From an uncultured delta proteobacterium (lineage in GTDB: Bacteria > Desulfobacterota > Desulfobulbia > Desulfobulbales > Desulfocapsaceae), in NCBI GenBank assembly GCA_903875445.1, contig CAIQWD010000023.1:1-64000 (forward strand): a stretch of DNA of 64,000 bases, given 5' to 3'. Positions 32,969-41,679 of this stretch are shown piece by piece (positions within the stretch are counted from its first letter, which is position 1; every line of letters starts with the position of its first letter). Both the position numbers and the translations under genes were made by a program. The notes under the pieces are model-generated. The model saw only the letters and a list, made by a program, of their open reading frames with translations, had not been told where the DNA came from and ran no database searches.

Positions 32969-33907
32969 ATGTTGCAAATCGCTAATCTTTCCTTTGCCTC
33001 GCCATTTGTTCTGGCCCCGCTGGCCGGCTATTCCGATTTGCCCTTCCGCTTGCTCTGCAAGCGTTACGGAGCCGGATACTGCGTCTCCGAAATGATCAGC
33101 TGCCACGGACTTGTCTACGAGCAACACAATACCTTGAAATTACTAGCCACTATGCCGGAAGAACGACCAATTTCTTTCCAACTTTTTGGCGCGGATCCTG
33201 AGGTTATGGCCGATGCGGCAGAAATTCTTGCAAGCCATTCTCCGGAGATGATCGACATCAATATGGGATGCCCTGTCAGAAAAGTAACCAAGCGAGGAGC
33301 GGGAGCGGCTCTCATGACTGATCGCAACCTTGCGGAAAAGATTCTTAAAAAAGTCGTTGCCAGAGTGTCCATTCCTATTACCGTGAAGATCAGATCAGGC
33401 AAAGATGCTGCTTCCATAACCGCCGTAATTTTTGCCAAAATGGCTGAGGATAATGGGGCGACAGCGGTCACAGTGCATGCCAGAACATGGTCTCAGGGCT
33501 TTTCCGGACATATTGACCAAGCGGTCATCGCCAACGTCAAAAATAACGTAAACATCCCGGTTCTTGGGAATGGCGATGTGTTGTCTTATGAGGACGGTCG
33601 GAAAATGATGGCGGAAACCGGCTGTGATGGCGTAATGATAGGCCGTGGGGCACTGGGCAATCCCTGGATCTTCCAAGAAACCGGGAGGCCCGAGAGTCTA
33701 CCGGAAATTGTCGCCGGAGCACTAGAACACCTGCGGCTGATCGAGGAATTTCTTCCGGCTGATCGGCTTCTTGGTCATGTGAAAAGCCAGATATCGCGGT
33801 ATTTCAAAGGATTTCCGGGATGCTCGACTCTCAGAGCAAAAGTATTCGCCGCAGAGAATTTGCTAAAGTTACGGGAAATTATCAACTCCTCAATCTCCCA
33901 GGCCTAG
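32969..33907 (+). CDS. dusB: tRNA-dihydrouridine synthase (DusB-like)
   Basis: The 312-residue flavoenzyme has an FMN TIM-barrel with APLAGYSDLPFR, the catalytic cysteine C101 (INMGCPVRKV), VTVHARTWSQ and GVMIGRGALGNPW. It reduces uridine to dihydrouridine in the D-loop of tRNAs. It follows lptE by 78 bases. It is convergent with the BepA-like gene, with only 5 bases between them. Confidence 0.92.
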   Translation: MLQIANLSFASPFVLAPLAGYSDLPFRLLCKRYGAGYCVSEMISCHGLVYEQHNTLKLLATMPEERPISFQLFGADPEVMADAAEILASHSPEMIDINMGCPVRKVTKRGAGAALMTDRNLAEKILKKVVARVSIPITVKIRSGKDAASITAVIFAKMAEDNGATAVTVHARTWSQGFSGHIDQAVIANVKNNVNIPVLGNGDVLSYEDGRKMMAETGCDGVMIGRGALGNPWIFQETGRPESLPEIVAGALEHLRLIEEFLPADRLLGHVKSQISRYFKGFPGCSTLRAKVFAAENLLKLREIINSSISQA

Positions 33908-33912
33908 CCCGG

Positions 33913-35322
33913 CTATTTATTTAACAGCTCTATTTTCTTTAAGAGCATCTGCGTCTCGGTTTTGCTCTTTTCAGAAAGGGTTTTATCGCGCAGAGCGTTC
34001 TTCAGACTTTGCTCTGCCAATTTCATCTTTCCCCCGTAAAGGTCGAACTTTCCAAGATAGAATGCCGCAAGGCCAGGTTGCTTGTTCTCGGTGGCTATCT
34101 GCCCCAACTCGAAATATACCTGGGAATATTCCGGAATTTGAAAGCTGACTGTTTGAAAATACTGTTCCGCCTCGGCAGACCTGCCGGTTCTGTTTAACAA
34201 CTTGGCCAAGGTGAAGGTTGCATATAAGTCCGAGCTATCGATTCGTAAAGCTGCCCGCAAAGTTTTTTCGGCTTCAACCAATTTGCCGGATGCAAATTCG
34301 ATGACGCCCTTATCAACTTGTAAAATATTTTTATCTGGGAAGAAGGCAATTACCTGGGCTAACAGTTCCATGCTTCTGACATAGTCATTTTCATTTTTTG
34401 CCACCTGAGAGAGACCATAAGTGGCCATGGTTTTCGAAAACGGCGTTGCTCTTGCATCGGACAAAACGGTGGCGAGAAAAATTTTGAACTGCTCAGTATC
34501 CTTCACCTCGGCGAGAATTCGGTATTTACAACGGAAAAACTGAAAATCTTCGTTCACACCAGCTTTCCCGACAGCACTTTCATTATCGGTATCCATGAGG
34601 GATTGGATATAATTTAGCCTTGCCTCCGGGTCGGGATGAGTGAGGAGATACTGGGGCAGTTTTTCACTGCGGTAGCGTGAAATCCGCCGCATGGTTTCCA
34701 ACATTCTCACCTGACCTTCCGGGTTTCTGCCGAGTTTTTTCATCCAACCGTAGGCCAAGAGATCGGCCTCTTCCTCATCTTGACGGCTGAAATGCAGGTT
34801 AACGCTTTGACCTGCCGCCAGCGCTCCGGTAAGAAGAACCGGCGCAGTTGTTCCGCCAAAAGCCACAGCGGCCAAGGCTAATCCGAGTGAAGCTATTCCC
34901 GAATAGGTGCCTTTTTCAACCCTTGAGGCGAGATGCCGGTTGTATATATGGCCGATTTCATGAGCCATAACGGAAACCAATTCATCTTCCGAATTCATTG
35001 CCGCAAAGAGACCAGAATGGAAGAAAATCAGGCCGGATGGAGCGGCAAAAGCATTTAACTCTTTGTCGTCAATGACAAAGAAATGGTAGTCAAAATATTG
35101 TATTCCGGCGACCTCAAGGACACTTTGGCCGAGTTTGGTGATGTATTGAGTGATATCCAGATCATCTTTCAGAATAAAGGCTGAGCGAACGGAATAGAGC
35201 AGTTTTTCTCCCACTTCCCGTTCATCGCCGATGGAAAAGGGAAAAACCGAGGAAACAAGAGTGAATTGAAAAAAAACGACGGCCAAAATCCCTGCCAACT
35301 TCTTTAAGTATAGCTGTTTCAT
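33913..35322 (-). CDS. BepA-like M48 metalloprotease with TPR repeats
   Basis: This 469-residue protein has a signal peptide (LAGILAVVFFQFTLVSSV) and an M48 peptidase domain with HEIGH at 121-125 and a later EEADLLAYGW zinc ligand. TPR-like helices follow to the C-terminus. The layout matches BepA, a periplasmic protease-chaperone that supports LptD and BAM assembly. The ATG at 35322 overlaps the oleD stop in an ATGA, so translation is coupled; the longer frame from 35337 was rejected. It follows the Ole cluster in one probable operon. Confidence 0.88.
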   Translation of the reverse strand: MKQLYLKKLAGILAVVFFQFTLVSSVFPFSIGDEREVGEKLLYSVRSAFILKDDLDITQYITKLGQSVLEVAGIQYFDYHFFVIDDKELNAFAAPSGLIFFHSGLFAAMNSEDELVSVMAHEIGHIYNRHLASRVEKGTYSGIASLGLALAAVAFGGTTAPVLLTGALAAGQSVNLHFSRQDEEEADLLAYGWMKKLGRNPEGQVRMLETMRRISRYRSEKLPQYLLTHPDPEARLNYIQSLMDTDNESAVGKAGVNEDFQFFRCKYRILAEVKDTEQFKIFLATVLSDARATPFSKTMATYGLSQVAKNENDYVRSMELLAQVIAFFPDKNILQVDKGVIEFASGKLVEAEKTLRAALRIDSSDLYATFTLAKLLNRTGRSAEAEQYFQTVSFQIPEYSQVYFELGQIATENKQPGLAAFYLGKFDLYGGKMKLAEQSLKNALRDKTLSEKSKTETQMLLKKIELLNK

Positions 35323-36341
35323 TGTTTTTTCAACCATTGTACGGTCCTGTACAAGCCTTCTTTGGTAGAAACTATCGGTTCATAGCCAAGATCCTTTCGC
35401 GCCTTGGCTATGGAAAAATAGTGTGATTTAGCCAACTGTTCGGCAAGAAAACGGGTCATTCTCGGCTCTTTTTTCGAGCCGATGGCGGCATAGAAGAGTT
35501 CGAGAGCTCCGCCCAGCCGATATGCAAAAGCTTCGGAAAGCGATGCTTGTATTGGCGGAACGGCCATTTCGGCGAAGAGCTCATTTATCCAGTTCCAGAG
35601 ATTAACCGGTGTACCCTGACTGATAAAATAGGGTCTACCACTGGCCGTCGCCTTGCCGGCAAGGTTTTTGGCCGCCAGAATATGGGCATACGCCACATTG
35701 TCAATATAGGAAATATCCACGAGATTGGCACCATTCCCCACTCTTTTCAACTGTTTTTTCTTGCCGCTGGCCAAGAGTCGCGGCAAAAGATGGGGGTCGC
35801 CGGGGCCCCAAATAAGATGCGGTCGAAGGGCACAGGTCCTCAGGTCGGAGGAGTTGGCACCGAGAACCATTTTTTCCGCCATGATCTTGCTGGTCGCATA
35901 ATGGCAAAGAGATTTTTCAGCGTAATCCAGTCGCTCATCCGCACCAAGAATATCCCTGCCATTGAACACCACGGAAGGTGTCGAGGTGTAAACAAGCATG
36001 GTCACCTTGTTGGCCCGACAACTCTCAATGACTTTTTCCGTTCCAACCACATTGGAAAGGTAATAGTCCTGCCAGGATCCCCATATGCCGGCTAGGGCGG
36101 CAACATGAAAGACAATATCTATTCCCTTTGTCGCTTCGATCATCGCCTCAGAGTGGCTGATATTGCCGACAAAACATTCAGCCCCTGCCGCCTCAATGTC
36201 GGGATATCGATGCCGACCGATCACCCGGATCTCGACTCCCAGTTCAAGAAGCCTCATGACTACGGCCTTGCCGACAAAACCACCGCCGCCAGTCACCAAA
36301 GCCTTTTTTATTGTTGGGGAAAAATTTTCTTTTGTGCCCAT
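35319..36341 (-). CDS. oleD: OleD-like 2-alkyl-3-oxoalkanoate reductase
   Basis: The 340-residue short-chain dehydrogenase/epimerase-type protein has the nucleotide motif GGGGFVG (18-24), YTSTPSVVFNG and an active-site Y-A-T-S-K. It resembles 3-beta-HSD/OleD proteins. OleD reduces the beta-keto acid made by OleA to a beta-hydroxy acid in head-to-head olefin synthesis. It follows oleC with a 34-base overlap. The gene order supports the call; on its own the protein could be another sterol- or sugar-type reductase. Confidence 0.8.
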   Translation of the reverse strand: MGTKENFSPTIKKALVTGGGGFVGKAVVMRLLELGVEIRVIGRHRYPDIEAAGAECFVGNISHSEAMIEATKGIDIVFHVAALAGIWGSWQDYYLSNVVGTEKVIESCRANKVTMLVYTSTPSVVFNGRDILGADERLDYAEKSLCHYATSKIMAEKMVLGANSSDLRTCALRPHLIWGPGDPHLLPRLLASGKKKQLKRVGNGANLVDISYIDNVAYAHILAAKNLAGKATASGRPYFISQGTPVNLWNWINELFAEMAVPPIQASLSEAFAYRLGGALELFYAAIGSKKEPRMTRFLAEQLAKSHYFSIAKARKDLGYEPIVSTKEGLYRTVQWLKKQ

Positions 36342-37936
36342 CTTGCCAATTCTTCGCGAAATATTTTGGCATTATGCCGAATATCGACGGGAAAACCTTT
36401 GTGAATGAGAAAAAGCTTTATACCCTTGGTGAGGTTGCTGCCTTCGCTCAAGGTTTTTACTTCCGTCAGTACCTGCTTTTTGTCGATATGCGTATCTTTA
36501 TGTAATTCAATAAGGATCACCGGCAGGCAGCAATCGTCTTTGCCCTTTATACCGACAAGCGCCGAACGATTGACATCGGGGTGTTCATTGATAATGGCTT
36601 CACAGGGAATGGTATAGAGCGGCCCGGTCGCGGTTTCCAGACGATGCGCCCGCCTTCCGCAAAACCACAGGCGCCCACTGGCATCGAGATAGCCGACATC
36701 GCCCATCCTGTGCCAGAACGTGTCACCTTCGCAAATCTTTGCCAAACAAGTCTCTTCAGGATTATTCTGATAGGCTTTGGTCACAACATCGCCACGGACA
36801 ATTATCTCACCAATCTCCCCTGGTTTCAGCAACATATCCGGGTGCAGTTCCGGTACAGGATTATCCGAAATTGCCATGATCTGCAGACTGATGCCCGGCA
36901 AAGCACGTCCCACGCAGGTGCCTCTTCCCTGGCGACTTTCTTCCCAGGTATCGGTAAGAATTTCGTGGCCGGAAATAGAGGCAACAGGCAGGCTTTCGGT
37001 GGCACCGTAGGGCGTAAAAATAGCGGCTTCCGGCGGCAGAATTGCTGTAACCCTCTGCAATAAATCGCCGGGGACCGGCGCTCCGGCCATTAAAACTTTA
37101 CGGATGGATTTCAAAATTATTCGGTTCTTCAGACAATATCTGCTTACCACATTCCATATCGTCGGAGAACCGAACGAATAGGTCACCTGATATCGCTTGA
37201 TAGAGGCAACGAACTTTTCCGGATCAACCCTGGCCGGCCTCGTGGCATCCATGTCGGGAATCACTGAACAGGCACCAAGAGCTGCCGAAAACAGGGCAAA
37301 AAGTGGAAAGGCAGGTTGGTCAACATCGGCTGGTCCTATGCCGTAGTAATCTCTGATGAACTGCAGTTGGGCACTGAAAACCCCGTGTTCATAGCGCACC
37401 CCTTTGGGCGGGCCGGTGGAACCGGTAGTGAAGATAATGGCTGCCAGATCATCTTGGCCAGGTTGGTGTACGGCGGTCGGATTATCCGTTGCGGCAACGC
37501 AGGTGCAGATATCCGGACCGAGGATTCCAAACGAGTTGCCGCAACAAAAATATTTTTTTACCGTATGAAACGGCTTTTGAAAGATTTTGGCAAAGGCGAG
37601 GGCTTTGGGAATTCCTATAAGCACCTTCGGTTCTACCCTTTCAATACAGCGCAGCAAATTCTTATAGCCCATGCCGGGATCGATAAGAACAATCGGGGCA
37701 CCGAGCTTAAAAAGGGCCAAAGTCAGGCAAATGAATTCGATGGACGGGGTAACCATGAGAATCACCACATCGCCTGGAACAATACCCTGTGCGACAAAAT
37801 AGGTACAATATCCATCGGATCTGCTGTTCAGTTCGGCAAAGGTAACGGCCTTTCCGCTCTTTGCCTCAATGATTCCGGTGCGATCACCAAATTGCTCGGC
37901 AATCCCCACAAAAGATTCGGCAATATTCATCGTCAC
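36308..37936 (-). CDS. oleC: OleC-like beta-lactone synthetase (AMP-binding)
   Basis: This 542-residue ANL-superfamily protein has the AMP-binding motif FTTGSTGPPKGV, ATESLPVASISG and a C-terminal domain with an RRAHRLETATG segment. OleC uses ATP to close a beta-hydroxy acid to a beta-lactone. Annotation as a generic fatty-acyl-CoA or AMP ligase is possible without the neighbours, but it sits between oleD and oleB. The GTG at 37936 overlaps oleB in a GTGA; an ATG at 37930 is the alternative. Confidence 0.82.
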   Translation of the reverse strand: MTMNIAESFVGIAEQFGDRTGIIEAKSGKAVTFAELNSRSDGYCTYFVAQGIVPGDVVILMVTPSIEFICLTLALFKLGAPIVLIDPGMGYKNLLRCIERVEPKVLIGIPKALAFAKIFQKPFHTVKKYFCCGNSFGILGPDICTCVAATDNPTAVHQPGQDDLAAIIFTTGSTGPPKGVRYEHGVFSAQLQFIRDYYGIGPADVDQPAFPLFALFSAALGACSVIPDMDATRPARVDPEKFVASIKRYQVTYSFGSPTIWNVVSRYCLKNRIILKSIRKVLMAGAPVPGDLLQRVTAILPPEAAIFTPYGATESLPVASISGHEILTDTWEESRQGRGTCVGRALPGISLQIMAISDNPVPELHPDMLLKPGEIGEIIVRGDVVTKAYQNNPEETCLAKICEGDTFWHRMGDVGYLDASGRLWFCGRRAHRLETATGPLYTIPCEAIINEHPDVNRSALVGIKGKDDCCLPVILIELHKDTHIDKKQVLTEVKTLSEGSNLTKGIKLFLIHKGFPVDIRHNAKIFREELARWAQKKIFPQQ

Positions 37937-38853
37937 CTTCCCTCTCCTCCGCCCAAAAATGCCTGAAGGATGGGGAGAATCTCGACGATTTTATCCTCCA
38001 GAACATAGTGACCTCCGTCCTTGAAATAGTGACTTTCCGCCTCCGGAAAACGGCTCTGCCATTCCTTATAGAAATGATCGTTAAAGCAAAAATCCTTCCC
38101 ACCCCAGAGTATGAGAAGGGGGATATTCCGCTCTCGAAGGAGCAACAAGGAGTTTTCTATTGCCACCAGCCCGGCATAGCTTCGATGCTTTTGATGCATT
38201 GGAATATCTTCAACAAATCTGGCTATCGCCACTCTGTTGTGCCAATTGTTGTAAGGTGCCAGATAGCCCTTGATGGTTTCCGCCGAGAGCTTTTTCTCCA
38301 CAGCCATAAAACACGCCGGCCCTGCAAAACCGTTCAGCTGTCTGACAAGGATTTCACCTATTATCGGCAGGCGGCAGAGACGAATACGCCAGGGAAGTCT
38401 GGTCGAACGAAAAGCGGCGGTATTCATAAGGGTGATCTTTTCGATCTGGTCAAGGTGTTGCACCGCATAGCCGAAGCCTATTGCTCCACCCCAGTCATGG
38501 ACGATGAGTGAAAAACGATCAATCCCTAAATGCTTAAGAAGACGTCCGAGATTTTCAATATGCTGGGCAAGGCAGTAGGGATAATGAGGCGGCTTGTCGG
38601 ATAGCCCGCATCCCATATGATCGAGGGCAATAACCCGATGACTTTGTTGAAAATGGGCAATGAGATGTCGATAATAGTACGACCAGGTAGGATTGCCGTG
38701 AACCATGACAATAACCGGACCGGTGCCTTCATCAATATAATGGAGCCGGCCACCTGTTAGAGAGAGATAGTTGCTTGCGAAAGGATAGTCTTTATACACT
38801 GGCAAAAATCTGGTTTTTACATCGCCACAAGGGGGAGATACTCGGGTTTCCAT
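37933..38853 (-). CDS. oleB: OleB-like alpha/beta hydrolase (beta-lactone decarboxylase)
   Basis: The 306-residue protein has the haloalkane-dehalogenase-like fold with VMVHGNPTWSYYYR, nucleophile D120 (VHDWGG) and a late GGHYVLED histidine. OleB decarboxylates the beta-lactone made by OleC to give a cis-olefin. The start overlaps the end of the malic enzyme gene by 37 bases, which implies coupling. A haloalkane dehalogenase is the alternative reading; the oleC and oleD neighbours favour OleB. Confidence 0.82.
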   Translation of the reverse strand: METRVSPPCGDVKTRFLPVYKDYPFASNYLSLTGGRLHYIDEGTGPVIVMVHGNPTWSYYYRHLIAHFQQSHRVIALDHMGCGLSDKPPHYPYCLAQHIENLGRLLKHLGIDRFSLIVHDWGGAIGFGYAVQHLDQIEKITLMNTAAFRSTRLPWRIRLCRLPIIGEILVRQLNGFAGPACFMAVEKKLSAETIKGYLAPYNNWHNRVAIARFVEDIPMHQKHRSYAGLVAIENSLLLLRERNIPLLILWGGKDFCFNDHFYKEWQSRFPEAESHYFKDGGHYVLEDKIVEILPILQAFLGGGEGR

Positions 38854-40553
38854 CTGATTCTATCAATCAGTTTCTTCATCCTCGTTTCGTCGTTATCATG
38901 CTGAAAGTCGGAATACACGCAAGGCCTGCTGACTCCACGTTTGACTGCGACCATGGCGACCGCCAAGGCTACAGTCTTCCCCACCTGGCGAATCATATTA
39001 ACCGGCGGCACCAGTCGCCCTTTTCCGAGATCGTCAGGATTCATCATTTCCGAGATCGCATAGGCTGCGGCAGTGAAAAACTCGGGGAGTACCTCTCGGG
39101 CACCTGAGGCGAGAACGCCAAGTCCCACGCCGGGGAAAACCAAGGCATTATTGCACTGACTGATGAAAAATGAATCTTCGAGCGCATCCATGGCGGCGCA
39201 AGGATTGCTGGTGGCGACCATAACCCCTTCCTCGTTCCATTTGCGAATGTTCTGACAAAATATTTCGGGAGTGGAGATATGGTGAAACAGAGGAAGAATC
39301 AGAGGACGAGTTGTATTATGTTTGAGAGCCGCGACGGCTTCTGTGCGGAAAAAGAAATCCTGACCGGTGGTCCCCACCAAGACGGTAATCCCGGCTTGAC
39401 GAATAATTTCGGGGAGATCTATTTTATTTATGGTACTGATCCAGGGGTATTTCTTCTTGTCTTTGGCAAATTTCCTTTTGTAAAGCGCCATGTCGCGATG
39501 GTTGGTGACAAGGCCCTGAGAGTCGATCATAAAGATACATTCAAGGGCCTGTTTCTCTGACAATCCTTCTGATATTAAAGCGTTACGTATTTGTTCACCG
39601 ATTCCAACTCCTCCTGCCCCGGCGCCGTTGATGAGAAAGCGTTGTTCGGTGAGCTTTTCTTTTTTAACCTTCATTGCCGAAAGAATCGCCGCCAAGGCGA
39701 CGGCACCCGTGCCCTGGATATCGTCATTGAAGGATATCAATTCATCGACAAAGGCATCGCGGATACTGAAGGCGTTGTGCTGCGAGAAATCTTCCCATTG
39801 ACAGAGGGCATTGGGAAACACATTGCGAAAGGCCCGGACAAATCTGCCGATGAAGGACAGATATTCCTCTCCTTGCAATCTTCTGTGCCGCCAGCCAAGA
39901 TATTGAATGTCGGAAAGCAGCTTTTCATTATCGGTGCCGACATCCAGCGAAATCGGCAGGCAATGCCAGGGGGCGATACCTGCACCCTGGGTGTAGAGCA
40001 TCAATTTTCCAAGACATACGGCGATGCCGCCGGCGCCCTGATCGCCGATGCCAAGCACACCCTGATTGTCGGTTACCACTGCCACCCGGATATCGCGGTG
40101 GACAAACCGGCGCAGGATATCTTCGGCCCTGTCGATATTACCGGGGTAAAAGTGCAGACCATTCGCCTGGCGAAACATCGATGAATATTTCTGCACCGCC
40201 ATGCCGATGGTGGGTGTGTAAATGATTTTTATATAGTTTTCGATATCGCTTTTTATCAGGGCATGGGCCAGAGTGACATTCCGGTCAAACATCGCCCGGA
40301 TAAAGATGAATTTTTCTATATCATCGGCCTTGTCTTCAACCTTAATACGCGAGCTTTGCACTTGACCTTCGAGATTTCGCACCCCAGGCGGAAGAGTTGC
40401 CTCAAGATTCAGGAGCTTTCTCTCCTCCGGAGTAAAGGCCGTCCCCTTATTAATATAACTGCAGGATCTGGCCGAGGCACCACTGGCATAAACAATAATT
40501 TCCCTGGTGTTGCCGTATTCGTCATATTTGAATCTGTAGAGATTTGCCGCCAT
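38817..40553 (-). CDS. NAD-dependent malic enzyme
   Basis: This 578-residue enzyme of the large malic-enzyme family (MaeA/SfcA type) has IIYTPTIGMAVQKYS, GIGDQGAGGIAVCLGK, FNDDIQGTGAVALAAIL and a nucleotide fold with INGAGAGGVGIGE. It decarboxylates malate to pyruvate with NAD(P)H formation. A GGAGGGG ribosome-binding site precedes the ATG. The overlap with oleB places it at the head of the malic enzyme-oleBCD-bepA-like operon. Pyruvate and reductant supply to olefin synthesis would be logical but is inference. Confidence 0.92.
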   Translation of the reverse strand: MAANLYRFKYDEYGNTREIIVYASGASARSCSYINKGTAFTPEERKLLNLEATLPPGVRNLEGQVQSSRIKVEDKADDIEKFIFIRAMFDRNVTLAHALIKSDIENYIKIIYTPTIGMAVQKYSSMFRQANGLHFYPGNIDRAEDILRRFVHRDIRVAVVTDNQGVLGIGDQGAGGIAVCLGKLMLYTQGAGIAPWHCLPISLDVGTDNEKLLSDIQYLGWRHRRLQGEEYLSFIGRFVRAFRNVFPNALCQWEDFSQHNAFSIRDAFVDELISFNDDIQGTGAVALAAILSAMKVKKEKLTEQRFLINGAGAGGVGIGEQIRNALISEGLSEKQALECIFMIDSQGLVTNHRDMALYKRKFAKDKKKYPWISTINKIDLPEIIRQAGITVLVGTTGQDFFFRTEAVAALKHNTTRPLILPLFHHISTPEIFCQNIRKWNEEGVMVATSNPCAAMDALEDSFFISQCNNALVFPGVGLGVLASGAREVLPEFFTAAAYAISEMMNPDDLGKGRLVPPVNMIRQVGKTVALAVAMVAVKRGVSRPCVYSDFQHDNDETRMKKLIDRIRWKPEYLPLVAM

Positions 40554-40592
40554 ACTTAAGCCCCCTCCATGTTACCTCAATGAATTGTGCGA

Positions 40593-40621
40593 TTGACAAG
40601 TATCATTCTTTGCCGCATAAT
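40593..40621 (+). promoter_or_regulatory. promoter of the KamA-family gene, close to its start codon
   Basis: TTGACA (40593-40598) and CATAAT (40616-40621) are 17 bases apart. Only 8 bases separate the -10 box from the ATG at 40630, so transcription should begin at or next to the start codon. No ribosome-binding site is visible. Confidence 0.6.
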
Positions 40622-40629
40622 GCCCGGCC

Positions 40630-41679
40630 ATGGAAACCTGGCAACTCATTTTGCAAAACAGCATAACCACGCTTGATGGTCTGAAAAGACAATTGGATTG
40701 TGATGATACCGCATTAGGGCAAGTAATAGCAAACTTTCCCATGCGAATAAATCCCTATTTTGCAAATTTGATACAATCTCCCGGTGACCCGATTTGGAAA
40801 CAGGCGGTTCCCGATGTGGCGGAACTTAGCGATACGGTGTGCGTGGCCGACCCTTTAGGAGAAGAAAATCTCAGCCCGGTCACGGGTCTCGTGCATAAAT
40901 ATCCGGACAGGGTGTTGTTTCTGATTTCCAACCAGTGTGCCATGTACTGTAGATTCTGCACAAGAAAACGGAAAGTAGGCACGGCCAGGATGAGGATTGA
41001 CGATTCGACCCTTTCAGCCGGCTACGAGTACCTGCGAAATCATCCTGAGGTACGAGAAGTCCTGCTTTCCGGGGGAGATCCCCTGCTGCTGGCGGATGAG
41101 GAAATCGGCGAAATCCTCAGCAACCTGCGGGCGATCCCTTCAATAGAGATCATTCGCATCGGCACCCGGGTGCCTTCGGTTCTGCCTATGCGCATTACCA
41201 ATAGCCTTGTCGCTATTCTCAAAGCTCACCACCCTCTTTATATCAATACCCACTTCAATCATCCGCTGGAAATAACAAAGGAATCTTCTCTTGCCTGCAC
41301 CATGCTTGCAGATGCCGGCATTCCCCTCGGCTGTCAGACGGTTTTGCTTAAAGGAGTGAATGACAATGCCGATACCATCAAGCAGTTGATGCTGGCCCTG
41401 CTGCGTATCCGGGTCAAACCCTACTATCTCTTTCAGGCAGACCTTACCCGGGGAACAAATCATTTCCGCACACCAACCGAAACCGGCATAGCAATCATGC
41501 GTAAGCTGTACGGCCATATTTCCGGGATGGCTATCCCCACCTTGGCGCTTGATGCCCCCGGAGGTAAAGGAAAAATACCCCTGACACCGCAATTCATTTT
41601 GCAAAAAGGTAAAAACCTTCTTTTTGAAAATTACCGGGGAGAGATCTGCACCTATCCTGAAGCCGGCGAAGGACTCTGA
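40630..41679 (+). CDS. KamA-family radical SAM protein (lysine 2,3-aminomutase-like)
   Basis: The 349-residue protein has the cluster motif C103-x3-C107-x2-C110 (CAMYCRFC), VLLSGGDPLLL and QTVLLKGVNDN of the KamA/EpmB family. At this length it is closer to EpmB, which beta-lysylates EF-P with EpmA, than to the longer catabolic aminomutases. Neither EpmA nor efp is in the window, so the specific role is open. It is divergent from malic enzyme and has a promoter adjoining its start. Confidence 0.85.
   Translation: METWQLILQNSITTLDGLKRQLDCDDTALGQVIANFPMRINPYFANLIQSPGDPIWKQAVPDVAELSDTVCVADPLGEENLSPVTGLVHKYPDRVLFLISNQCAMYCRFCTRKRKVGTARMRIDDSTLSAGYEYLRNHPEVREVLLSGGDPLLLADEEIGEILSNLRAIPSIEIIRIGTRVPSVLPMRITNSLVAILKAHHPLYINTHFNHPLEITKESSLACTMLADAGIPLGCQTVLLKGVNDNADTIKQLMLALLRIRVKPYYLFQADLTRGTNHFRTPTETGIAIMRKLYGHISGMAIPTLALDAPGGKGKIPLTPQFILQKGKNLLFENYRGEICTYPEAGEGL

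Follow-up and report, generated by a model that had tools for sequence, protein, structure and literature searches.

The olefin pathway encoded by the ole genes is known, and the systems closest to the one treated here are the OleABCD systems of Xanthomonas campestris, Shewanella oneidensis and Micrococcus luteus. The β-keto acid made by OleA goes to an OleBCD complex, with OleD using NADPH and OleC acting as a β-lactone synthetase (PMC7158056, in the part of the text available), and OleB decarboxylates β-lactones (PMC7064751, likewise in part). The latter source, as far as its text was available, gives the contexts of purified OleA proteins as oleABCD with 0–3 intervening genes, oleBC fusions and oleACD. 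Two further relatives are the Pfa-linked pathway of Shewanella and Geobacter bemidjiensis, from which a C31:9 product is known (partial texts of PMC6463001 and PMC3098273), and the oleACD β-lactone clusters of the lipstatin type, which are without oleB. The present study concerns a window of 64,000 nucleotides from an uncultured delta proteobacterium of the Desulfocapsaceae (assembly GCA_903875445.1, contig CAIQWD010000023.1, positions 1 to 64,000), which is contig C23 of a genome, here G000, of 4.89 Mb in 117 contigs with an estimated completeness of 95%. Judged from sequence comparison, this genome very probably encodes a complete head-to-head olefin pathway, with its oleBCD half in the window and its oleA at another site, and the malic enzyme gene beside oleBCD would be an incidental neighbour; the arrangement of the pathway genes is dispersed.

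As in the OleABCD systems, all four ole genes are encoded in one genome, oleB, oleC and oleD follow one another in this order with short spacing, and OleA carries the OleA pattern and aligns with solved OleA chains. In contrast to those systems, oleA of G000 lies on another contig and is followed by an AMMECR1-like gene (assigned by eye), and oleBCD is followed by a gene for an M48/TPR protease; the clustering of oleA with oleBCD, a survey criterion that the chemistry does not need, is not found in G000.

The sequence-only reading of this DNA had described oleBCD with oleA absent. No oleA is indeed found in the window, but the search of the rest of the genome that it proposed was run and was positive: oleA stands at C4:12173-13207 and encodes 345 residues. 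The protein scores 441 bits against PRK09258 (cut-off 285), and its residues 12–345 align with the solved OleA-type chains 3row, 3s21 and others in the Protein Data Bank (PDB), with a best E value of 5.7e-65. It matches these chains, of which we take 3row and 3s21 to be X. campestris OleA, at the Glu-Pro, Asn-Ala-Cys-Leu, His-Gln-Val and Gly-Asn positions, where the Cys, His and Asn are presumably catalytic. The pattern EPxx[AS]x(14,18)DxxNACL, given for OleA in the available part of PMC7158056, occurs in the G000 protein from residue 98 and in 39 of the 40 oleA loci, the miss (L105) being an OleA cut by a contig end; Glu117 of OleA, which is followed by Pro, is described as essential in the accessible portion of PMC7064751.

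Among the open reading frames (ORFs) of the window, the genes in question are transcribed from the minus strand in the order malic enzyme, OleB, OleC, OleD and M48/TPR protease.

38817..40553, minus strand: malic enzyme (oxaloacetate-decarboxylating malate dehydrogenase); NF010052 612 bits, cut-off 326; PF03949 and PF00390 above their cut-offs.
38800..38816, no strand: gap of 17 bases that separates the stop of malic enzyme from the start preferred for oleB.
37933..38799, minus strand: oleB, alpha/beta hydrolase; PF00561 108 bits; GTG start at 38799 preferred over the ATG at 38853 chosen by the ORF caller.
36308..37936, minus strand: oleC, AMP-binding β-lactone synthetase; NF006754 642 bits, cut-off 478, and trees; GTG start.
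35319..36341, minus strand: oleD, 2-alkyl-3-oxoalkanoate reductase of the short-chain dehydrogenase/reductase type; NF042423 383 bits and NF042422 344 bits (cut-off 580, reached by neither).
33913..35337, minus strand: M48 metalloprotease with TPR repeats, the last gene of the run; PF01435 102 bits, above its cut-off.

The assignment of OleB, OleC and OleD, originally made from motifs and gene order, holds. For OleC the families that rank next after NF006754 are olefin β-lactone synthetases, with 510 and 503 bits, and for OleD the top two families, NF042423 and NF042422, are both 2-alkyl-3-oxoalkanoate reductases. OleB would be the β-lactone decarboxylase, its best NCBIfam models being haloalkane dehalogenases with scores below their cut-offs. 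The proposed phylogenetic check of OleC was also carried out, with trees that compare relatives and ligases of the same genome, experimentally characterised OleC proteins not being included. In a FastTree tree, 49 OleC rows (from the window, its relatives and one Candidatus Electronema, eight of them from loci with oleA adjacent) lie on one side of the branch that separates them from 12 other AMP-binding ligases of G000, with a support of 100, so that the OleC of the window groups with 48 other OleC rows; the run gave a long-branch warning among the ligases. These 12 ligases remained from 16 that were tried, the other four being lost to a motif filter that likewise removed the OleC row L096, and of the 23 AMP-binding matches in G000 one, L163, is the OleC of the window, and six (L165–L170), those with the weakest scores, were left out of the tree. 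In a slower tree with five G000 ligases the OleC group is supported at 100/100.

The oleB and oleC genes overlap by 4 bases (GTGA), the GTG start of oleC lying over the stop of oleB, and oleC and oleD overlap by 34 bases; the aligned oleD start is an ATG in all 13 of the same-genus loci with oleD, where the overlap with oleC is 22–34 bases. The earlier description of oleBCD in order with overlaps of 4 to 37 bases therefore stands for the order and for these two overlaps, but not for the 37-base overlap, which is treated below with the malic enzyme gene.

The separation of oleA from oleBCD was followed in a sample of 57 genomes, consisting of G000 and 56 relatives. oleC is found in 49 of these genomes and oleA in 47, with both present in 47, oleA alone in none and neither in eight (Fisher p 2.7e-8, shared descent ignored). 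In eight genomes (G037, G040, G043, G046, G047, G053, G055 and G056), all of which fall outside the window's family, oleA and oleC are 1–2 kb apart with oleB between them; oleD comes next in six of these loci, and the stretches from G040 and G053 show none. In G050, oleA and oleB are at contig ends. In the other 38 of the 47 genomes oleA is apart from oleC, standing on a different contig in all but three single-contig assemblies. Of these 38, 35 belong to the window's family, where they make up every sampled genome with oleA, two to family f4 and one to family f7. Separate contigs are weak proof of distance in fragmented assemblies; in the single-contig relatives G019, G027 and G028, oleA is about 2.0 to 2.6 Mb from oleBCD. 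No oleBCD was found around oleA in the 29 family loci examined, and no oleA around the family's oleBCD loci. An AMMECR1-like gene follows oleA on its 3′ side in 28 of these 29 loci (the miss being G024) and in both f4 loci, and does not do so in f7. As far as gene positions tell, the ole cluster is split in the window's family, with oleA apart from oleBCD. In the literature searched, the texts of which were partly available, no description was found of ole genes being split in this bacterial order; the accessible part of PMC3098273 states that ole genes may stand at a distance from pfa-like clusters, a separation of another kind.

In G054 (locus L109) oleC and oleD are adjacent, no oleB is found in 13.8 kb and the genome gives no oleA match; pathway decay or another use of the β-lactone synthetase may lie behind this partial set. 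The oleC match of G002 (L032/L065), a genome that is 56% complete, has one internal TGA, from either error or decay. In Candidatus Electronema (L147, JAPEVH010000087.1) oleC is near the contig start, without a match to oleB or oleD in 12.7 kb, and its downstream neighbours appear unrelated by eye.

A gene for a FabI-like reductase is a candidate extra, fifth, gene of the pathway. It is located 5′ of oleA in ten of the 12 loci examined outside the window's family, accompanied in seven of the ten by a fabZ-like and in six by a fabG-like gene, and the two remaining loci (L105 and L106) stop at contig edges; in G047 and G050 it stands, by coordinates, beside oleA on another contig. Of the 47 genomes with oleA, 45 have the gene (the two misses are G007 and G023), against none of the ten without oleA (Fisher p 1.5e-9, again with shared descent ignored). 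In G000 it is at C66:597-1406, and its product shares 71% identity with that of G056. Within the window's family the gene has lost its place next to oleA: of the 33 genomes with both, 13 have them on one contig, about 5 to 88 kb apart, and no fabZ- or fabG-like match was found around the FabI-like gene in 11 family loci. Most genomes with oleA (36 of 47) have a second FabI-type match, G000 among them (C25:15991-16716, 126 bits, with 28% identity to the G056 protein). This distribution, together with the second match, fits a dedicated paralogue. Against such a paralogue, the oleA-linked gene is the only FabI-type match in nine genomes with oleA, where it may therefore be the ordinary enzyme; no match in the 57 genomes reaches the cut-off of the FabI model; and no FabI-type match was found in G039, G045, G048 and G052, four of the eight genomes without oleA and oleC, so that another enoyl reductase must serve there. 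Five of the ten genomes without oleA (G036, G042, G044, G049 and G054) do have a FabI-type match. Matches to FabK at E values up to 0.001 are present in 56 of the 57 genomes, none above the cut-off, and decided nothing. We tentatively propose, with rather more doubt than confidence, that a dedicated FabI-like enoyl-acyl carrier protein reductase feeds acyl chains to OleA, and that fab-like genes and oleABCD once formed a single cluster, which in the window's family was split into fabI-like, oleA and oleBCD parts while the pathway was kept.

The sequence-only reading had further proposed that oleB overlaps the malic enzyme gene and that this couples C4 metabolism to olefin formation, or allows read-through. 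The start of oleB given by the ORF caller, 38853, sits within the malic enzyme gene and produces the 37-base overlap, and the extra N-terminal OleB residues that follow from it are another reading frame of the 3′ end of the malic enzyme gene. A start codon aligned with the GTG at 38799 is present in 27 of the 35 family loci with OleB (window included) and is the sole in-frame start in ten of these 27; in the other eight loci no start codon is aligned with it. The overlap is thus most likely a start-codon artefact, and with the GTG at 38799, the start conserved in most family loci, as the oleB start a gap of 17 bases to the malic enzyme stop remains. The malic enzyme gene is an upstream neighbour that lies outside the olefin pathway. 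Of the 35 family loci, 17 have it upstream of oleB in the same orientation. In 13 of these 17 the two are separated by a cold-shock gene that reads the other way; in the four without that gene the distance from malic enzyme to oleB is 17 bases in the window, 8 in G005, 81 in G013 and 128 in G003. In the other 18 loci malic enzyme was not seen upstream in the stretch examined, which is short in some.

The possibility that malic enzyme and oleBCD form a selected functional operon, with malic enzyme as the source of reducing power or pyruvate on which acyl-chain synthesis and OleD would draw, has to be weighed against these observations. The gaps of 17 and 8 bases in the window and G005 leave little room for a separate promoter, and the NADPH dependence of OleD (PMC7158056, available part) would fit such a unit. 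However, the intervening opposite-strand cold-shock gene in 13 of 17 loci, the 18 of 35 family loci without malic enzyme seen upstream (including that of G001, one of the two nearest relatives judged by OleC) and the varying gap where the cold-shock gene is missing (four loci) make this improbable. As a general selected unit, a malic enzyme–olefin operon is rejected by the intervening cold-shock gene, and the proposed link between C4 metabolism and olefin formation is unsupported. Less probable still is the view that oleBCD without an adjacent oleA is a leftover or acts on β-hydroxy acids from another source, since, although the oleC and oleD of G054, kept without oleA or a FabI-like gene and with no oleB in 13.8 kb, show that partial sets exist in the order, the oleA of G000 carries the signature residues, 48 of the 49 oleC matches are free of internal stops (the exception being G002), and oleA and oleC occur together in 47 genomes.

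The simplest account of the close junction in the window is that it is derived, the cold-shock gene having been lost along with its spacer on the line leading to the window species and its close relative G005; in 13 of the 17 loci that gene, on the opposite strand, stands between malic enzyme and oleB. Such a loss of the divergently transcribed gene would have brought malic enzyme directly upstream of oleB, and at most the malic enzyme promoter would now also feed transcription of the ole genes; read-through from malic enzyme to oleB is possible in the window species, because only 17 bases separate the two. In the slower OleC tree, from which G001 was left out, the window and G005 form a pair. 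Upstream of oleB in G001 (L064, 7 kb examined), neither malic enzyme nor a cold-shock gene nor a KamA-type gene is seen, and cyclic-nucleotide-binding-like and repeat-like proteins are encoded there, as assigned by eye.

The cold-shock gene itself is found 5′ of oleB, pointing away from it, in 23 of the 35 loci, ten of which are without malic enzyme in the stretch examined. The spacing between the two is a few hundred bases (loci L065, L067, L069–L075 and L077–L080, and ten further family loci). The protein encoded between malic enzyme and oleB in L072 has 66 residues, and G000 has cold-shock genes at other sites, the closest 83% identical. Since Shewanella hydrocarbon increases in the cold (PMC6463001, in the part available), a shared and possibly temperature-responsive control region between the cold-shock gene and oleB is conceivable. 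An Rfam scan near the cold-shock gene in eight of the 23 loci gave no match at the gathering score. A scan of positions 33800–40800 gave 14 promoter-like sites (shuffled mean 8.8, sd 2.7) and ten terminator-like sites (shuffled mean 8.8, sd 2.9), with none of either kind inside the gap between malic enzyme and oleB; these counts were not used as evidence.

Several points weigh against a complete olefin pathway with an incidental malic enzyme neighbour. The scores of OleC against the olefin β-lactone synthetase models are below their cut-offs of 900 and 850, OleD is below the NCBIfam cut-off of 580 and OleB is below the cut-offs of its nearest models, while the best PDB sequence matches are an alpha/beta fold hydrolase and haloalkane dehalogenases for OleB, gramicidin synthase and coumarate ligases for OleC, and sterol-carboxylate dehydrogenase for OleD. 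The scores below cut-off argue against equivalence to the Xanthomonas and Shewanella proteins, to which the model names point, and for that reason not against the pathway. Two genomes, G002 (56% complete) and G054 (95% complete), have oleC without oleA. The presence of malic enzyme near oleB in 17 of the 35 family loci may be cited for a functional link, and the window, G005 and G001 form an open trio in the FastTree tree of OleC, which bears on whether the cold-shock gene was lost once or several times.

In the proposed pathway, OleA would condense two acyl-CoA chains to a β-keto acid, OleD would reduce this with NADPH, OleC would close the β-lactone with ATP, and OleB would remove CO2 from the β-lactone to give a long-chain internal olefin. 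The genes for OleB, OleC and OleD are perhaps kept together as their products form one assembly, with OleA made separately; action of the three as a complex would be one reason for oleBCD to stay overlapped while oleA can wander. With regard to the product, G000 shares the Ole enzymes with the Pfa-linked C31:9 pathway but differs from it in having no match above the cut-off to the multidomain synthase PfaA, and no such match was found in any of the 57 genomes, with four candidates scored per genome. The best PfaA match in G000 scores 140 bits (cut-off 1010), and of the four G000 matches the two listed are each confined to one domain; in the relatives G053, G044 and G054 the scores are 735–798 bits, also below 1010. 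A polyunsaturated C31:9 product is therefore unlikely here, and olefins from chains of ordinary fatty acid synthesis are more likely and would be expected. The oleACD β-lactone clusters share homologues of OleA, OleC and OleD with G000, whereas G000 also has oleB, overlapping oleC by 4 bases, and with oleB beside oleC an olefin rather than a β-lactone would be expected as the end product (PMC7064751, in the text available).

At the other end of the run, oleD and the M48 protease gene overlap by 19 bases, or by 4 if the next in-frame ATG (35322) is taken as the start. The M48 gene lies 3′ of oleD in 34 of 36 family loci (window included), both misses (L070 and L093) being contig ends, and also in both f4 loci; it is not seen in the 11 other loci, some of which are cut short. 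The label 'BepA-like' formerly given to this protein applies only loosely, since the M48 domain is above its cut-off but the score against the BepA model NF052400 is 166 bits, below the curated cut-off of 570. On the far side of malic enzyme, the window has an adjoining divergent radical S-adenosylmethionine gene of the KamA family (40630–41679), which is kept in many loci of the same family; its product is above the cut-off of TIGR00238, and it scores 438 bits against the AblA model (cut-off 525).

In conclusion, the metabolic lead that the neighbouring malic enzyme seemed to offer is probably false and is corrected here, and on the evidence of gene content the ability to make long-chain olefins appears to extend over a whole family related to sulfate reducers. 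Such genomes would be discarded by a survey that requires oleBCD within 5 kb of oleA (PMC7158056, available part), and a survey based on a six-gene window would leave them out of its high-confidence set (PMC7064751, available part). The split parts oleA, the gene that chooses the chains, from oleBCD, the genes of one complex, and it points to the FabI-like reductase as a testable extra component of the pathway.

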